NCBI RefSeq assembly: GCF_002927635.1
Contig: NZ_PRDS01000012.1
Location: 1 to 60,926 of the forward strand
Source: Albidovulum inexpectatum
GTDB lineage: Bacteria; Pseudomonadota; Alphaproteobacteria; Rhodobacterales; Rhodobacteraceae
Direction of reading: 5' to 3'
Length of the DNA: 60,926 nucleotides
How positions within the stretch are numbered: the stretch's first letter is position 1; every line of letters begins with the position of its first letter. Of the stretch, positions 41,397-48,035 are shown piece after piece. A program made the position numbers and the translations under genes. The notes beneath the pieces were generated by a model that saw only the letters and a list, made by a program, of their open reading frames with translations, was not told the DNA's origin and did not search any database.

Positions 41397-43139
41397 ATGG
41401 ACCAGTTCACACTTAACCTGATCGTCGTCGGCGCGACCTTCCTGCTGTATATCGGGATCGCCATCTGGGCCCGCGCCGGATCGACCAGTGAATTCTATGC
41501 CGCGGGTCGCGGCGTTCACCCGATCACGAACGGCATGGCGACCGCTGCCGACTGGATGTCGGCCGCGTCGTTCATCTCGATGGCCGGTCTCATCGCCTTC
41601 CTGGGCTATGACGCCTCGGCCTATCTGATGGGCTGGACGGGCGGCTACGTGCTGCTGGCGCTGATGCTTGCGCCCTATCTGCGCAAGTTCGGCAAGTACA
41701 CCGTGCCCGAATTCATCGGCGACCGCTTCTATTCGCCGACGGCGCGCATGGTGGCTGTTGTCTGCCTGATCGTCGCCTCGGTCACCTACGTCATCGGCCA
41801 GATGACGGGCGTCGGGGTTGCCTTCTCTCGCTTCCTCGAGGTGGACAACGCGACCGGCCTGTATATTGGCGCGGGCATCGTGTTCCTGTATGCCGTTCTG
41901 GGCGGCATGAAGGGCATCACCTATACGCAGGTGGCGCAATATGTCGTGCTGATCATCGCCTACACGATCCCGGCGGTGTTCATCTCGCTGCAGCTGACGG
42001 GCAATCCGATCCCGGCGCTGGGCTTGTTCTCGGAAGCCAAGGCGACCGGCGAACCGGTTCTGACCACGCTGAACGGCATGCTGGCCGATCTGGGCTTCCA
42101 GTCGTATACCGAACAGCATGACACGACCCTGAACATGTTCCTGTTCACCGTGTCGCTGATGATCGGTACCGCGGGTCTGCCGCACGTCATCGTTCGCTTC
42201 TTCACGGTTCCCAAGGTCGCCGACGCGCGTTACTCGGCCGGCTGGGCGCTGGTCTTCATCGCGCTTCTGTACCTGACGGCCCCGGCCGTGGGCGCGATGG
42301 CGCGGATGAACCTGATCGCCACGTTCTATCCGAACGGGACGACGGGCGAAGCCGTGGCCCTGTCCGACATCCAGAGCAACGAAAACCTTGACTGGGTGCG
42401 CAACTGGGAAAAGACCGGCCTGCTGAAGTTCGAGGACAAGAACGGTGACGGCCGCATCCAGTATGTCGCCGATGCGGACGCCAACGAGCTGACGGTCAAC
42501 CGCGACATCATGGTTCTGGCCAACCCGGAAATCGCCAACCTGCCGGGCTGGGTCATCGCCCTTGTCGCGGCCGGTGGTCTGGCGGCGGCGCTGTCCACGG
42601 CTGCGGGCCTGCTGCTTGCGATCTCGTCGGCGATCTCGCATGACCTGATCAAGGGCCAGCTCAATCCGAACATCTCGGAACGGGGCGAGCTGTTGGCGGC
42701 GCGCATCTCGATGGCCGTTGCGATCGCGGTTGCCACCTATCTGGGTCTGAACCCGCCGGGCTTCGCGGCCCAGACGGTTGCCCTGGCCTTTGGTATCGCC
42801 GCGGCATCGCTGTTCCCCGCGCTGATGATGGGCATCTTCGTGAAGCGCATCAACAACAAGGGCGCGGTTGCGGGCATGCTGGCCGGTCTGATCGTGACGC
42901 TGGTCTACATCTTCCTGCACAAGGGATGGTTCTTCCTGCCGGGCACGAACAGCTTCAGCGACAGCGATCCGCTGCTGCTGTCGATCAAGTCGACGTCGTT
43001 TGGCTCGATTGGCGCCCTGATCAACTTCATCGTCGCCTATGTCGTGTCGAACGCGACCGAGGAGCCGCCGGAGGAGATCCAGGAACTGGTCGAATCGATC
43101 CGCATCCCGAAAGGGGCGGGCGCGGCCACGGCGCACTGA
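41397..43139 (+). CDS. Sodium:solute symporter of the VC_2705 type (acetate symporter)
   Basis: A 580-residue inner-membrane symporter with about 13 hydrophobic segments. EFYAAGRGVHPITNGMATAADWMSAASFI is the family N-terminus with the sodium-site region, and AAALSTAAGLLLAISSAISHD carries the Ser/Thr pair of the Na2 site. Acetate or a related monocarboxylate is the likely substrate because acs precedes it. In the loop near residues 346-357 lies DKNGDGRIQY, spaced like an EF-hand calcium loop. The gene is followed by a hairpin and then the DUF294 gene. Confidence 0.92.
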   Translation: MDQFTLNLIVVGATFLLYIGIAIWARAGSTSEFYAAGRGVHPITNGMATAADWMSAASFISMAGLIAFLGYDASAYLMGWTGGYVLLALMLAPYLRKFGKYTVPEFIGDRFYSPTARMVAVVCLIVASVTYVIGQMTGVGVAFSRFLEVDNATGLYIGAGIVFLYAVLGGMKGITYTQVAQYVVLIIAYTIPAVFISLQLTGNPIPALGLFSEAKATGEPVLTTLNGMLADLGFQSYTEQHDTTLNMFLFTVSLMIGTAGLPHVIVRFFTVPKVADARYSAGWALVFIALLYLTAPAVGAMARMNLIATFYPNGTTGEAVALSDIQSNENLDWVRNWEKTGLLKFEDKNGDGRIQYVADADANELTVNRDIMVLANPEIANLPGWVIALVAAGGLAAALSTAAGLLLAISSAISHDLIKGQLNPNISERGELLAARISMAVAIAVATYLGLNPPGFAAQTVALAFGIAAASLFPALMMGIFVKRINNKGAVAGMLAGLIVTLVYIFLHKGWFFLPGTNSFSDSDPLLLSIKSTSFGSIGALINFIVAYVVSNATEEPPEEIQELVESIRIPKGAGAATAH

Positions 43140-43205: not shown

Positions 43206-45032
43206 TTGAATACCGAAACAGCTGCAGTTCAGACGTTCCTGCAATCGGTCCATCCCTATGATGCCCTGCCGCAGGATGAGCTGGCGCGTGTCGCCAGCTC
43301 CTTCGGCCGCAGGGAACTGCCGCCGGGCACACTGGTCTATGAAATCGGCGAGGCGCTCGAAGGCCTGTTCCTGATCGAAAGCGGTCAGGTCGAGATTCTC
43401 GATTCAAACGGCGCGCTGGTTTCGATACTCGGGCCGCGGAACTCGTTTGGCGAACGCGGATTGCTGCGCGATGGGCGCGCTGCCACCACCGCGCGGACCA
43501 CGGCGCCGACGCGGCTTCTGGTTCTGCCTGCCCGTGAATTCCACCGGCTTGTCAGGGAAAGCCCCGCCTTTGCGCGCTTCTTCGACCGTGGCGGAGGCGG
43601 CGAGCCGCGCGGTCCCGATCTGGCCACGCGCAGCATCGCCGAGCTGATGACGCCAGACCCGGCGACCTGTGCGCCCGAAGCCAGCGCGGCCGAGGCCGCG
43701 CGTCAGATGCGGGACCGCAAGATCTCGTGCCTTGGCGTCACGGATCGGCAGGGCAGGCTTGTGGGGATCGTGACGACCCGTGATCTCTCCAATCGTGTCG
43801 TGGCCGAGGGGCGGCCATCGGACATCCCGGTCGCGCAGGTGATGACACCCGATCCCGTTGCCCTGCCGCCAACGGCGCTGGGCACGGATATCCTGCATCT
43901 GATGCTGGAGCGCCGCATCGGTCATGTGCCCGTGGTCCGCGATGGGCGGATGATCGGCATCGTGACCCAGACGGATCTGACGCGCCAGCAGGCCATCACT
44001 TCGGCCAGCCTGATCCGCGACATTGCGCGCGCCGACACGATCGACCAGATGCGGACGGCGACCGCGCGCATCCCGCAACTGTTGCGCCAGCTGGTCGGCG
44101 CGCAGACCGCGCACGAGATCACGACGCGCCTGATCACCGACATCGCCGATGCCGTGACCCGCAGGTTGATATCCATGGCCGAGGCCGAGCTGGGACCGCC
44201 TCCGGCACCCTATCTGTGGCTCGCCTGCGGCAGCCAGGGGCGGCAGGAACAGACCGGAGTTTCGGATCAGGACAACTGCCTGATGATCGACGACTCGGTC
44301 ACGGCCAAGGACATGGCTTGGTATGAGCGGCTGGCCCGCTTCGTCAGCGATGGTCTGAATGCCTGCGGCTATGTCTTTTGCCCGGGCGACATGATGGCCA
44401 CCAATCCGCGCTGGCGACAGCCGGTGCGGGTCTGGCGCGACTATTTCATGGGTTGGATCGCGACCCCCAGTACCGAGGCCCAGATGCTGGCCAGCGTCAT
44501 GTTCGACCTGCGCCCCATCGGCGGCGACGCCGCGCTGTTCGAGGGGTTGCAGGCCGAGACGCTCGAGGCTGCGTCGCGCAACTCGATCTTCGTTGCGCAC
44601 ATGATCTCGAATGCGTTGAAGCACACGCCGCCGCTTGGCCTGATCCGCGGCTTTGCCACGATCCGCTCGGGCGAGCACCGCAACACGATCGACATGAAGC
44701 ATTCGGGTGTCGTTCCGGTCGTCGATCTGGCGCGGATCTATGCCTTGAAGGGGCGTCTGCGTCCGGTCAATACCCGTGCCCGGCTGCTCGAGGCCATCGA
44801 TGCGGGAATCGTTTCGCCCGCGGGAGGGCGGGATCTGCTTGCGGCCTATGACCTGATCGCGCAGACCCGGCTGAACCACCAGGCGGCCCAGATTCGCGCG
44901 GGCGAAAAGCCTGACAACTACCTGGCCCCGTCCCAACTTTCGGATTTCGAGCGTAGCCACCTGCGCAACGCCTTTGTCGTGGTTCGAACGATGCAATCCG
45001 CCCTGGGCCACGGCAAGGGCATGCTGGAGTGA
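43206..45032 (+). CDS. cNMP-binding/CBS/DUF294 nucleotidyltransferase-like protein
   Basis: A 608-residue cytosolic protein. Residues about 12-125 form a cyclic-nucleotide-binding-like domain (RELPPGTLVYEIGEALEG, FGERGLL). Two CBS domains follow at about 147-265 (AELMTPDPATCAPEAS and VMTPDPVALPPTA). The nucleotidyltransferase domain shows CGSQGRQEQTGVSDQDN, with Gly-Ser and Asp354/Asp356 intact as in GlnD-type enzymes, and a DUF294 C-terminal domain completes it. The family accompanies acetate symporters; the adenylate-sensing CBS pair would suit a response to AMP/ATP. The target is unknown. The start is TTG 43206 with GGGGAGG six bases upstream. Confidence 0.92.
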   Translation: MNTETAAVQTFLQSVHPYDALPQDELARVASSFGRRELPPGTLVYEIGEALEGLFLIESGQVEILDSNGALVSILGPRNSFGERGLLRDGRAATTARTTAPTRLLVLPAREFHRLVRESPAFARFFDRGGGGEPRGPDLATRSIAELMTPDPATCAPEASAAEAARQMRDRKISCLGVTDRQGRLVGIVTTRDLSNRVVAEGRPSDIPVAQVMTPDPVALPPTALGTDILHLMLERRIGHVPVVRDGRMIGIVTQTDLTRQQAITSASLIRDIARADTIDQMRTATARIPQLLRQLVGAQTAHEITTRLITDIADAVTRRLISMAEAELGPPPAPYLWLACGSQGRQEQTGVSDQDNCLMIDDSVTAKDMAWYERLARFVSDGLNACGYVFCPGDMMATNPRWRQPVRVWRDYFMGWIATPSTEAQMLASVMFDLRPIGGDAALFEGLQAETLEAASRNSIFVAHMISNALKHTPPLGLIRGFATIRSGEHRNTIDMKHSGVVPVVDLARIYALKGRLRPVNTRARLLEAIDAGIVSPAGGRDLLAAYDLIAQTRLNHQAAQIRAGEKPDNYLAPSQLSDFERSHLRNAFVVVRTMQSALGHGKGMLE

Positions 45033-45042
45033 AGGAGAGCAG

Positions 45043-45573
45043 ATGCTGTTTGATTTCGTGAGTACGATCACCGCCGGGATCGGCGCCGCGGGTCTGGTGC
45101 TGATCGTTGATCGGCTGACGGGGCGTCGCCTGCCCAAGGGGATCGTGCCCGCAATCGCCGGTCTGGCCATGATCGCATTCACCCTGTGGAACGAATACAG
45201 CTGGGCCGACCGCGTTCGCGGGGCCTATCCCGACAGCGCCGCCGTGACCTTTCGCAATGAAAGGCGAGATTTCTGGCGCCCGTGGACCCTGGTGGTGCCG
45301 GTCACCACCCGCATGACGATCGTGGAATACGGGCCTGACGCCGATCTGCCGCCGAACCCCGGACCGGACTACCGCTATGCCCGGATCAGCCTGATCGAGC
45401 GCTGGAATCCCGTCTATGCGGTGACAACCCTTTATGACTGCGCGAAAGGTCGGCGCATCGATGGCGTGGCGGCAGGCACCGATCCGGGCACGATCGACCC
45501 GGCCGCGTGGCATGTTCTGGACCCGCAGGACCCCGGCCTGCAGGCTGCCTGCAATGGAGGATCGGATGGATGA
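45043..45573 (+). CDS. Small membrane-anchored protein of unknown function
   Basis: About 176 residues, no family recognised. Two hydrophobic segments (about 5-22 and 35-52) are followed by a soluble part of about 120 residues starting with WADRVRGAYPDSAAVTF. Two Cys residues (YDCAKG and AACNGG) could form a disulphide if this part is periplasmic. The ATG 45043 has GAAGGAG upstream. It sits between the DUF294 and receiver genes of the acetate block, so a sensing or accessory role is possible. Its end overlaps the start of the receiver gene by eight bases. Confidence 0.75.
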   Translation: MLFDFVSTITAGIGAAGLVLIVDRLTGRRLPKGIVPAIAGLAMIAFTLWNEYSWADRVRGAYPDSAAVTFRNERRDFWRPWTLVVPVTTRMTIVEYGPDADLPPNPGPDYRYARISLIERWNPVYAVTTLYDCAKGRRIDGVAAGTDPGTIDPAAWHVLDPQDPGLQAACNGGSDG

Positions 45574-45973
45574 GCCAGCCTCTCGGCGCCGCATCCTGGT
45601 CGTCGAGGATGAAGACAATATCGCCATGGCATTGGATTATGTCCTGACGCGCGAAGGCTATGAACACGACCGCGTGGCCAACGGCGCCGATGCCATGCCG
45701 AAGATCCGCGAAACGCGCCCGGACCTGGTGCTGCTGGACGTCATGTTGCCCGAAGTGTCGGGTTACGAGATTTGCCAGAACATCCGCATGGATCCGTCGC
45801 TGAAGGATACCAAGGTCCTGATGATGACGGCGCGCGGCTCCGCGATGGAACGGCGCAAGGGGCTGGCGCTTGGGGCCGATGGGTTCATCGCCAAGCCCTT
45901 CGAGCTGAAGGAGCTGCGCGAAGAGGTCCGCAGGCTGCTGGCGCCCGCCGATGGGGCAGGGGGCAATGTCTGA
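45566..45973 (+). CDS. Single-domain response regulator
   Basis: About 135 residues, receiver domain only, with no output domain. Acidic pair Glu14/Asp15 (VVEDEDN), phosphorylatable Asp58 (LLLDVMLPEVSG), Thr of MMTARG and Lys110 (FIAKPFEL) are all present, so it should be phosphorylated. The start ATG 45566 has GGAGG five bases upstream and is preferred over ATG 45554. Its stop overlaps the start of the sensor-exonuclease gene by eight bases, which ties the two together. Confidence 0.92.
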   Translation: MDEPASRRRILVVEDEDNIAMALDYVLTREGYEHDRVANGADAMPKIRETRPDLVLLDVMLPEVSGYEICQNIRMDPSLKDTKVLMMTARGSAMERRKGLALGADGFIAKPFELKELREEVRRLLAPADGAGGNV

Positions 45974-48035
45974 GCGCAGCAGCCTTCGCCTGCGCCTGTT
46001 GGTGCTGATTGCCGCGGCGCTTGCGGGGGCGATCGCTGCGCTGGCGGTGGCGGCAATGTGGATCCATGCCCGCTGGCCGGATTCCGGTCCGGTCGCCGCG
46101 ATCACCGGTGGGGCGGTCATTGCCGGCTTTGGCGTGCTGGCGTGTCTTCTGGCGGTGTGGTTCTGGCTGGACGACCGGATTGCCCGACCGCTTGCCCGGC
46201 TTGCGGCGGATCTGCGCGCCCAGGCGCATGCCCAAGGTCAGGAACCTGACTTCGATCCCGCGGTCTGGCCCCATCTGGGCGATCTTGCGCCGGCGGTGGG
46301 CGCGATCGTGTCGGAGCTGGCGCGCACGCGGCGCGAACTGGCCGAGGCCATCGCACGCCACACCGAACGCCTGCGCGAGGAGAAGGCCCGGCTGGAAGCG
46401 CTGCTGGCAGACGTTCCGGCCGCGGTTCTTCTGTGTTCCGAAACGCATCGGCTGGTCTTTTACAACGCACCCGCACGCGACATGCTGGGCGCCGATCCGG
46501 GGCCTGCTCTGGGGCGGGAGCTGTTCGACTGCCTGCGGCGCGCGCCGATCATGCATGCCCATGAAAGACTGCTTTCCGGGGGGGACCCCGACAGCGTTGC
46601 CGACCTGATGGTGGCCACGACCGATGGCGCGCGCATTCTTTCGGGCCGGATGCGGCTGTTGTCGGCGAACGGATCGGACGGATATGTCCTGACCTTGCGC
46701 GACGTGACCGCCGATCTTGCCGCCCAGGCCGGGCGCGACCTGCTGCTGGAGGAAATCTTCGATCGCATCCGCAGGCCCGCCGCCAACCTACAGACAATGA
46801 TCGGGGTGCTGGCCGAAGAGGGCCAGGATGCGGTCCTGACGCCCGCGCTGGTTGGCGAGGCCCAAGCGCTTGCGCACACGGTCAACGAGCTGGCGAGCCG
46901 TTACGAGGCGCTGCGCGGCGCCTGGACCGTACTGCCGCACAGTCGCGCGGCCGATCTGGCCGATGGTATCCGCGCCAGGGTCGAGGCCGTCGGGCTGAGC
47001 ATCACGACACGGACCGACGACCTGATCCTGCGCTGTGACGGTTTCGAAATCGCGGCTTTGCTGTCCCATCTGGCGCGTTGCCTTGACCGCGAGTCGTTGG
47101 CCTCGGCCTTGCGATTCACCATCGAACAGGACGGCGCGGGGGCAATGCTGTCGCTCGTCTGGCGGGGGCGGTCGGTGACCGTCGCGCAGTTGGAGGAGTG
47201 GCTGTCCCAGCCCGTCGATCCGGCTGCAGGCGATCTGACCGGGCGTTCGGTTCTGGTGGTTCACGCGACCGAATGCTGGCCCGAGCATCTGGGCGACGAT
47301 ACCTGCGCGATCCGCCTGCCGATCCGCGATGCCCGCCGCGCGGGGCCGCCGCCTGCGCCCCTTGCGCGTCACGTCGTCTATGACTTCGATCTTCTGTTCG
47401 CGCCCGCAACCGCGGCACTCGAGAACACGCCGCTGGATCGTCTGACCTATGTCGTCTTCGATACCGAGACCACGGGCCTGTTGCCCGACGAGGGGGACGA
47501 GATCGTCCAGATCGCGGCCCTGCGCCTCGTCAATGGCCGTCGCGTGCCGGGAGAGGTGCTGGACCTGTTGGTCAATCCCGGCCGTCCGATCCCGCCGCGC
47601 GCAACCGCGGTCCACGGGATCAGCGATCAGATGGTCGCAGATGCGCCCGATCCGACTCAGGCCATCGCACGCTTTCACAGCTTTGCCGAAGGGGCGGTGC
47701 TGATCGCGCACAACGCCCCCTTCGACATGGCCTTCCTGCGGCGCCGCGAGGAACAGATCGGCCGGCGCTTTGACAACCCGATCCTGGATACGGTGCTGTT
47801 GTCGGCGGTGGTCTATGGACGCACCGAGTCACATTCTCTGGATGCGCTGGCCCACAGGCTGGGCGTGACGATACCGCAGGAGGCGCGCCATACCGCGCTG
47901 GGCGACACGATCGCCACGGCCGAGGTCTTCCTGAAGCTGCTGCCCATCCTGAAAGGGCGCGGGATCGTCACCTTTGGCGATGTGCTGACCGAAATCCGCA
48001 AGCATTCCAGCCTGCTGCGCGATCTGAACGCATGA
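45966..48035 (+). CDS. Membrane PAS/pseudo-histidine-kinase fused to a DEDDh 3'-5' exonuclease
   Basis: About 689 residues. Two membrane segments (about 9-30 and 43-67) lead through a HAMP-like stretch and coiled coil to a PAS-like domain (about 140-250). A DHp-like helix follows, IFDRIRRPAANLQTMIGVL, with Asp266 at the position of the phosphoacceptor His, and an ATPase-like fold without N-box or DxGxG (about 320-460). The C-terminus is a DnaQ/PolC-type exonuclease with every catalytic residue: Asp499 and Glu501 (FDTETTG), Asp587 (IAHNAPFD), His642 and Asp647 (HTALGD). It thus looks like a sensor in which kinase output is replaced by a nuclease. Starts ATG 45966, overlapping the receiver gene. 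Confidence 0.88.
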   Translation: MSERSSLRLRLLVLIAAALAGAIAALAVAAMWIHARWPDSGPVAAITGGAVIAGFGVLACLLAVWFWLDDRIARPLARLAADLRAQAHAQGQEPDFDPAVWPHLGDLAPAVGAIVSELARTRRELAEAIARHTERLREEKARLEALLADVPAAVLLCSETHRLVFYNAPARDMLGADPGPALGRELFDCLRRAPIMHAHERLLSGGDPDSVADLMVATTDGARILSGRMRLLSANGSDGYVLTLRDVTADLAAQAGRDLLLEEIFDRIRRPAANLQTMIGVLAEEGQDAVLTPALVGEAQALAHTVNELASRYEALRGAWTVLPHSRAADLADGIRARVEAVGLSITTRTDDLILRCDGFEIAALLSHLARCLDRESLASALRFTIEQDGAGAMLSLVWRGRSVTVAQLEEWLSQPVDPAAGDLTGRSVLVVHATECWPEHLGDDTCAIRLPIRDARRAGPPPAPLARHVVYDFDLLFAPATAALENTPLDRLTYVVFDTETTGLLPDEGDEIVQIAALRLVNGRRVPGEVLDLLVNPGRPIPPRATAVHGISDQMVADAPDPTQAIARFHSFAEGAVLIAHNAPFDMAFLRRREEQIGRRFDNPILDTVLLSAVVYGRTESHSLDALAHRLGVTIPQEARHTALGDTIATAEVFLKLLPILKGRGIVTFGDVLTEIRKHSSLLRDLNA

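Follow-up and report, generated by a model that had tools for sequence, protein, structure and literature searches.

The stretch of DNA analysed here (the window) comprises 60,926 nucleotides from Albidovulum inexpectatum (contig NZ_PRDS01000012.1, positions 1 to 60,926 of the forward strand). At positions 45966..48035 (+) it carries a gene for a 689-amino acid (aa) fusion protein made up, from its N-terminus, of two transmembrane (TM) helices, a coiled linker, a PAS domain, a pseudo-DHp hairpin, a pseudo-CA domain and a DEDDh exonuclease. At the sequence level, the kinase-like core of this protein is degenerate and the catalytic residues of its exonuclease are intact; a single-domain response regulator co-occurs with the core, a transporter-kinase adjoins the gene in many loci, and a DUF294 nucleotidyltransferase is adjacent or fused to the exonuclease. 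We propose, tentatively and with a confidence just short of even, that the regulator, once phosphorylated, docks on the dead kinase and so sets the membrane exonuclease, which would be paired with the DUF294 nucleotidyltransferase in a system for acetate- or pyruvate-like carboxylates.

The fusion protein joins a degenerate histidine-kinase core to an intact-looking exonuclease

An earlier note, made from the letters of the window, had described the protein as having the layout of a sensor histidine kinase. Its two TM segments (residues 7-36 and 43-70; 45984..46175, +) were borne out by hydropathy, which put them at about residues 5-35 and 41-70, and by helices in the AlphaFold2 (AF2) model, and its PAS domain by a Pfam PAS_4 match at residues 149-249 (46410..46712, +; E = 4e-8). 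The HAMP-like stretch found no such backing: Pfam HAMP, like HisKA and HATPase_c, gave no match in the fusion protein at E≤1. The note had also placed Asp266 where a kinase carries its phosphoacceptor His, within a DHp-like part. This part, residues 248-320 (46707..46925, +), forms a helix hairpin in the AF2 model and matched PDB histidine kinases, DivL included, by profile, with Asp266 at the phospho-His place and a conserved Arg269. As to the ATPase boxes, which the note had given as missing, the N, G1 and G2 boxes are indeed lost, but the CA domain itself is not missing: its fold persists at residues 325-458 (46938..47339, +), as judged by AF2, Foldseek and box patterns. The full-length AF2 model had a predicted local distance difference test (pLDDT) score of 87.5.

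A profile of 68 sequences covering the region of residues 247-470 was compared with the PDB; a YycG-type kinase was the best match (1.3e-9), and DivL was also found (6e-6). Modelled by AF2 (pLDDT 91.1), the core consists of a two-helix hairpin and a CA alpha/beta sandwich. All of the 50 best Foldseek matches shown were titled histidine kinases, or proteins or complexes containing one, with E values from 9e-10, and DivL was among them (3.8e-9). The TM score of these matches was about 0.4, because DHp and CA are placed differently relative to each other. Across the 68 members, Pfam detected HisKA weakly in 13 and HATPase_c in 3, and neither in the core of the window. By profile and by predicted structure, then, the middle of the fusion protein is a histidine-kinase core by descent.

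Relatives were gathered from genomes at the levels of genus, order, class and phylum, to which named GTDB genomes were added. The named GTDB loci are the best 80 of 282 confirmed ones and were found with an alignment of the long form, so the proportions of the classes given below are not natural frequencies. The response regulator lay outside every search query. The counts rest on 208 distinct proteins from 234 open frames, taken stop to stop, so that their N-termini are not true starts; loci L120-L175 (some of their genomes being in no other set), L060 (no complete frame) and L233 (frame broken) were left out. We defined class A by at least 28 of 31 DHp columns filled, class B by fewer filled columns with CA present, and class C by the absence of CA. 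The 141 proteins with full DHp and CA are referred to as long forms.

Long forms are present in alpha-, beta- and gammaproteobacteria, which answers the note's suggestion to look for the fusion in other genomes. Within the best 80 of 282 the relatives come from Rhodobacter, Rhodovulum, Roseovarius, Azospirillum, Zoogloea, Thauera, Azoarcus, Accumulibacter, Polaromonas, Ectothiorhodospira, Wenzhouxiangella and others, with one in a metagenome-assembled genome titled Nitrospirota. Conservation across the three classes excludes chance or an assembly artefact, and a local oddity or frame artefact was likewise rejected on the conservation among relatives.

The phospho-His position of the 141 long forms never holds His: it is Glu in 63, Asp in 56 and another residue in 22, and hence acidic in 119. 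Three residues further on, the Arg corresponding to Arg269 is kept in 136 of the 141. The H, N and G2 box patterns matched 0, 0 and 0 long forms; a loose G1 pattern matched eight, and lay near the right place in at most one (L291). As a control, the H, N, G1 and G2 patterns matched 51, 54, 54 and 51, respectively, of 54 neighbouring transporter-kinases, a comparison that is partly circular because these controls were chosen, out of 56 symporter-matching frames of at least 800 aa, by matching at least two patterns (the other two are symporter frames). Judged by these residues, all 141 long forms appear to be kinase-dead.

The exonuclease domain, in turn, spans residues 494-664 (47445..47957, +) and gave a Pfam RNase_T match at residues 496-655 (3.8e-37). 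The five DEDDh residues that the note had seen are all in place (D499, E501, D587, H642 and D647), and all five are also present in 207 of 207 relatives covering the domain. In the full-length AF2 model this part superimposes on the PolC exonuclease with a root-mean-square deviation of 1.7 Å and on E. coli epsilon with a TM score of 0.84; RNase T is among its fold matches. Sequence and fold matches agree that it is a DEDDh (RNase_T/DnaQ-like) exonuclease with an intact-looking active site. The replicative DNA polymerase III epsilon was considered and rejected: the protein scores 113.8 bits against an equivalog cut-off of 196, and a separate dnaQ on contig C1 of the same genome scores 276.7. 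A dead core is thus retained, and the nuclease residues are under strict selection. Two findings that the note had named as speaking against its view, a functional HATPase or a loss of the DEDDh residues among relatives, did not turn up, AF2 giving a CA fold from which the ATP boxes are absent. Short forms of the protein, TM-PAS-exonuclease, also exist (36 with enough upstream sequence), and these keep DEDDh.

A single-domain response regulator accompanies the core

Beyond what the earlier note had covered, the gene upstream of the fusion tracks the dead core, and an intact transporter-kinase is adjacent in many other proteobacteria. The upstream gene codes for a single-domain response regulator (45554..45973, +; Pfam Response_reg, 2.2e-28), and sequence inspection revealed that the fusion gene begins before the stop of the regulator gene is reached. 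An alternative in-frame ATG for the fusion open reading frame (ORF) is found at 45951, and a G-rich stretch before the start may be a ribosome site.

Among relatives with enough context, a regulator lies directly upstream of 128 of 138 long forms, of 5 of 19 proteins with CA but a short or eroded DHp, and of 0 of 36 without the core; contig-edge rows (three of class A and one of class C) and 11 rows of class 'other' stand outside these counts. Fisher's test on the rows, which ignores kinship, gave 3e-30. The phospho-Asp of the regulator is kept in 133 of 134, the Lys in 133 of 134 and the Thr/Ser in 131 of 134, and 113 of the 134 frames are shorter than 200 aa. The regulator of L112 has lost both Asp and Lys, and its fusion has Val at the acceptor place. 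Because the regulator keeps Asp and Lys beside a partner without His, its phosphorylation seems still to be needed. A regulator with its phosphorylation site, next to a partner unable to phosphorylate it, would be expected if the kinase were reversed and served to read. The short forms have neither the core nor an adjacent regulator, which suggests that input by the regulator is modular and can be separated from the rest. Their existence also makes it possible that a membrane or PAS signal, to which the note had attributed control of the nuclease, is a second input.

Some loci depart from the common arrangement. In L055, L056, L061, L062, L109, L110, L114 and L119 the DHp helix is eroded, CA persists and no regulator is adjacent; in such eroded long forms the docking site may have been lost first. 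In Accumulibacter, L257, L261, L264 and L288 have a full core and no adjoining regulator, and L281 has one; for these four, the regulator may lie elsewhere in the genome.

A DUF294 nucleotidyltransferase and, in many loci, a transporter-kinase lie near the exonuclease

Outside Rhodobacterales ('outside' being taken by family code or NCBI order, with rows lacking taxonomy counted as outside), 44 of the 62 long-form loci with context have an intact transporter-kinase no more than 1.5 kb away, on one strand or the other, compared with 0 of 8 loci there whose core is eroded or absent. The family of the window itself was placed in Rhodobacterales on the basis of named relatives. The N-terminal part of the 54 transporter-kinases matches a symporter profile (E from 1e-34 to 7e-17), and Pfam found HisKA and HATPase_c in the kinases of L258 and L282, the two neighbours scanned. 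Residues 16-478 of the L282 kinase match PDB entry 10ed, titled histidine kinase (2e-74), which may be the CbrA transceptor of preprint PMC13022988. The Pfam SSF match remained below threshold in three kinases scanned (0.0089 in one). CrbS is described as a hybrid kinase (PMC5715377). 'CrbS-type' is thus a label that we infer, because SSF was not reached and no receiver domain was found, unlike in hybrid CrbS. The genome of the window has one such kinase on another contig, C9 (L299:4543-7257, -; 904 aa; HisKA 3e-18, HATPase_c 3.7e-24), which is 45% identical to that of L282.

In the window the genes follow the putative operon order symporter, cNMP/CBS/DUF294 protein, small membrane protein, regulator and fusion. 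The first gene (41397..43139, +) codes for a VC_2705-family sodium/solute symporter, an ActP-like SSF protein (TIGR03648 at E 2.9e-251, the cut-off of 320.75 bits being exceeded with 834.7; Pfam SSF). The second (43206..45032, +) codes, by Pfam, for a cyclic nucleotide (cNMP)-binding domain, two CBS domains, a DUF294 nucleotidyltransferase and DUF294_C, with a GSxGR..DxD motif at residue 342. The third (44974..45573, +; start uncertain) encodes a small membrane protein, TMx, recognized by a hydrophobic segment, with only a chance-level Pfam match (E 0.17) and no NCBIfam family; a homologue of this ORF stands at the same place in most Rhodobacterales loci compared.

The partnership of exonuclease and DUF294, which the earlier note had mentioned for other proteobacteria, is seen in the operon of the window, in PP_0354/PP_0353 of Pseudomonas putida (PMC9927547) and in direct exonuclease-CBS-DUF294 fusions. 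Of the 151 relatives whose locus extends 3.5 kb to either side, 132 have a DUF294 relative there, six of them in the same frame, and the GSxGR..DxD pattern is kept in 129 of 135 DUF294 frames of at least 450 aa. Exonuclease, two CBS domains, DUF294 and DUF294_C occur in one protein of 704-823 aa in L202-L206 and L208, which are from the class of the window. In L219, the symporter and DUF294 matches share one 1108-aa open frame, either a fusion or a read-on. The window thus holds the SSF symporter and DUF294, and the neighbourhood of transporter-kinase, SSF symporter and DUF294 is found in many loci outside Rhodobacterales.

The CBS-domain gene PP_0354 and the exonuclease gene PP_0353 of P. putida make up one operon; ErdR, which works together with the transporter-kinase MxtR, binds its promoter, and growth on pyruvate is impaired when PP_0353 is lost (PMC9927547). 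The counterparts of both genes in P. aeruginosa PAO1 adjoin actP (PMC9927547). Pflu5625 of P. fluorescens, a CrbS/R target, has cAMP-binding, CBS and nucleotidyltransferase domains, and nucleotidylation was predicted for it (PMC5715377). Going by these descriptions rather than by sequence comparison, the Pseudomonas genes would correspond to those of the window.

A proposed reversed kinase as the input of the exonuclease, and alternatives to it

In the mechanism that we propose, a carboxylate signal would act on a transporter-kinase, most likely SLC5-like and of the CrbS/MxtR type, which would phosphorylate the single-domain regulator encoded by the overlapping upstream gene. The phosphorylated regulator would dock on the pseudo-DHp helices of the inactive kinase core, used backwards as an input, and this docking would alter the PAS-DHp coiled coil and switch the membrane-anchored DEDDh 3′-5′ exonuclease; the PAS and TM parts would supply a second input. 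The exonuclease would form a pair with the cNMP/CBS-gated DUF294 protein, one adding and the other removing nucleotides or a short tail, and the setting would be the uptake and use of acetate- or pyruvate-like carboxylates. The docking, the direction of control and the switching, the identity of the kinase in the genome of the window, the substrate and the physiology are what we infer here. A more far-reaching version, in which this is a widespread proteobacterial chain running from transporter-kinase through regulator to a dead kinase that gates an eraser exonuclease, with DUF294 as the writer and with reversible nucleotidylation of a protein or RNA controlling acetate and pyruvate uptake, is doubtful.

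Several observations weigh against the proposed docking and its carboxylate setting. On a FastTree tree of the exonuclease, six independent pairs on supported branches could be compared, of which a mean of 4.7 agree with the co-occurrence, 0 oppose it and 1.3 show no difference (median p 0.0625), so that after correction for kinship the association of regulator and core is suggestive. Ten of the 138 long forms lack an adjoining regulator, and 5 of the 19 forms with a short or eroded DHp still have one; of these five class B rows, four (L064, L068, L069 and L073) keep a shortened helix with the Arg. Covariation between regulator and fusion (128 pairs, ~76 effective) gave no clear enrichment in DHp: the top pairs by Gaussian direct coupling analysis fell mostly in the TM and linker part, and among the top 100 by mutual information DHp reached 1.5 times the expectation, no better than CA (1.56).

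The transporter-kinase raises doubts of its own. It is adjacent in just 1 of 36 Rhodobacterales long forms, and Pfam found no receiver domain in the three kinases scanned (L258, L282 and that of the window's genome). It also lies near three of the seven class 'other' relatives outside Rhodobacterales, the coreless exonuclease-DUF294 fusions L204-L206, a pattern that links it with the exonuclease/DUF294 pair and not solely with the core. Moreover, 192 of 196 genomes of the order have one, whatever the form of their exonuclease; it is therefore available in the genome of the window without being diagnostic, and its presence was discarded as a marker of the regulator. As to physiology, deletion of PP_0353 was without effect on acetate or succinate, and deletion of PP_0354 without effect on acetate, succinate or pyruvate (PMC9927547).

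A variant compatible with docking keeps the same switch and gives it another substrate: the exonuclease would act on mRNA of central carbon metabolism, as the authors of the P. putida work guessed. We regard this as possible, though less likely than not. RNase T, itself a DEDDh exonuclease, is one of the fold matches, and the pyruvate phenotype of P. putida (PMC9927547) fits; on the other hand, this variant leaves unexplained why 132 of 151 loci have a DUF294 relative and why six proteins are direct fusions.

Unlikely, in our judgement, is that the dead core is a dimerising linker that passes on PAS and membrane signals, the regulator being no input to the nuclease but a passenger left from an earlier two-component pair and serving another kinase. 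The 36 short TM-PAS-exonuclease forms that keep DEDDh would suit such an arrangement, as would the covariation without clear DHp enrichment and the merely suggestive kinship-aware co-occurrence (p 0.0625). Yet a passenger would not be expected to vanish in every case with the core (0 of 36) and, in 14 of 19 cases, with the erosion of the DHp, and a mere linker would not need Arg269, kept in 136 of 141.

Bifunctional histidine kinases often act as phosphatases, and the core could then be a phosphatase or sink for a regulator phosphorylated by the transporter-kinase, with the nuclease as a separate PAS output. The adjacency of the transporter-kinase agrees with this, but in HisKA phosphatases the residue four past the phospho-His is usually T, N or Q, whereas here it is T in 0 and N or Q in 9 of 141 long forms, which makes this reading improbable. 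Finally, an unusual active kinase with an Asp or Glu phospho-acceptor, for which the acidic residue in 119 of 141 could speak, was rejected as very improbable on the lost N, G1 and G2 boxes (N and G2 patterns in 0 of 141, G1 in place in at most one, L291).

Comparison with known systems

Among the open-licence matches listed, neither a kinase-like protein fused to an exonuclease nor a fusion of DUF294 with an exonuclease was described in titles or abstract openings; subscription papers may differ. The pieces are each of a known type; the conserved pairing of a nuclease output with a dead kinase that would read a regulator did not appear there. The function of DUF294 and its partner exonuclease is left open by the papers considered, though both belong to a studied acetate/pyruvate regulon (PMC9927547, PMC5715377). 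If the proposed docking holds, it would give a direct route to asking what DUF294 proteins and their partner exonucleases do.

The exonuclease shares its fold and all five catalytic residues with the DnaQ and PolC exonucleases, while the fusion protein falls far under the epsilon equivalog cut-off (113.8 versus 196 bits). The SLC5/STAC kinases (CrbS, MxtR, CbrA and RpuS) have the same general build as the kinases adjoining the regulator-fusion pair in 44 of 62 loci; they are intact kinases, and the fusion is not a member of this group. PP_0353/PP_0354 of P. putida, targets of MxtR/ErdR (= CrbS/R), are alike in that an exonuclease stands beside a CBS-type gene with ties to an actP symporter and a transporter-kinase (PMC9927547). 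PP_0353 differs in being described, in the available part of that paper, as an RNase_T match only, with no mention there of TM, PAS or kinase core, the comparison being one of descriptions.

The closest parallel is DivL of Caulobacter, the known model of how a dead histidine kinase can read a regulator in its phosphorylated state. DivL reads phosphorylated DivK, and alphaproteobacteria without DivK often lack the DHp-CA of DivL (PMC4211667). Both proteins have PAS and a DHp-CA core without phospho-His and a single-domain regulator as partner, and in both systems regulator and DHp-CA tend to go missing together (PMC4211667; here 128 of 138 versus 0 of 36). The acceptor place holds Tyr in DivL and mostly Asp or Glu in the fusion, and DivL keeps the H, N, G1, F and G2 boxes save for that Tyr (PMC4211667), whereas the fusion has lost the ATP boxes; the fusion, moreover, has an exonuclease output and a regulator in an overlapping gene. 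Because the box pattern differs, we class the fusion as DivL-like reversed signalling and not as a DivL. If this is true, alpha-, beta- and gammaproteobacteria would offer a second case, set in a different context and having an enzyme for its output, which would point to a wider use of reversed two-component signalling.

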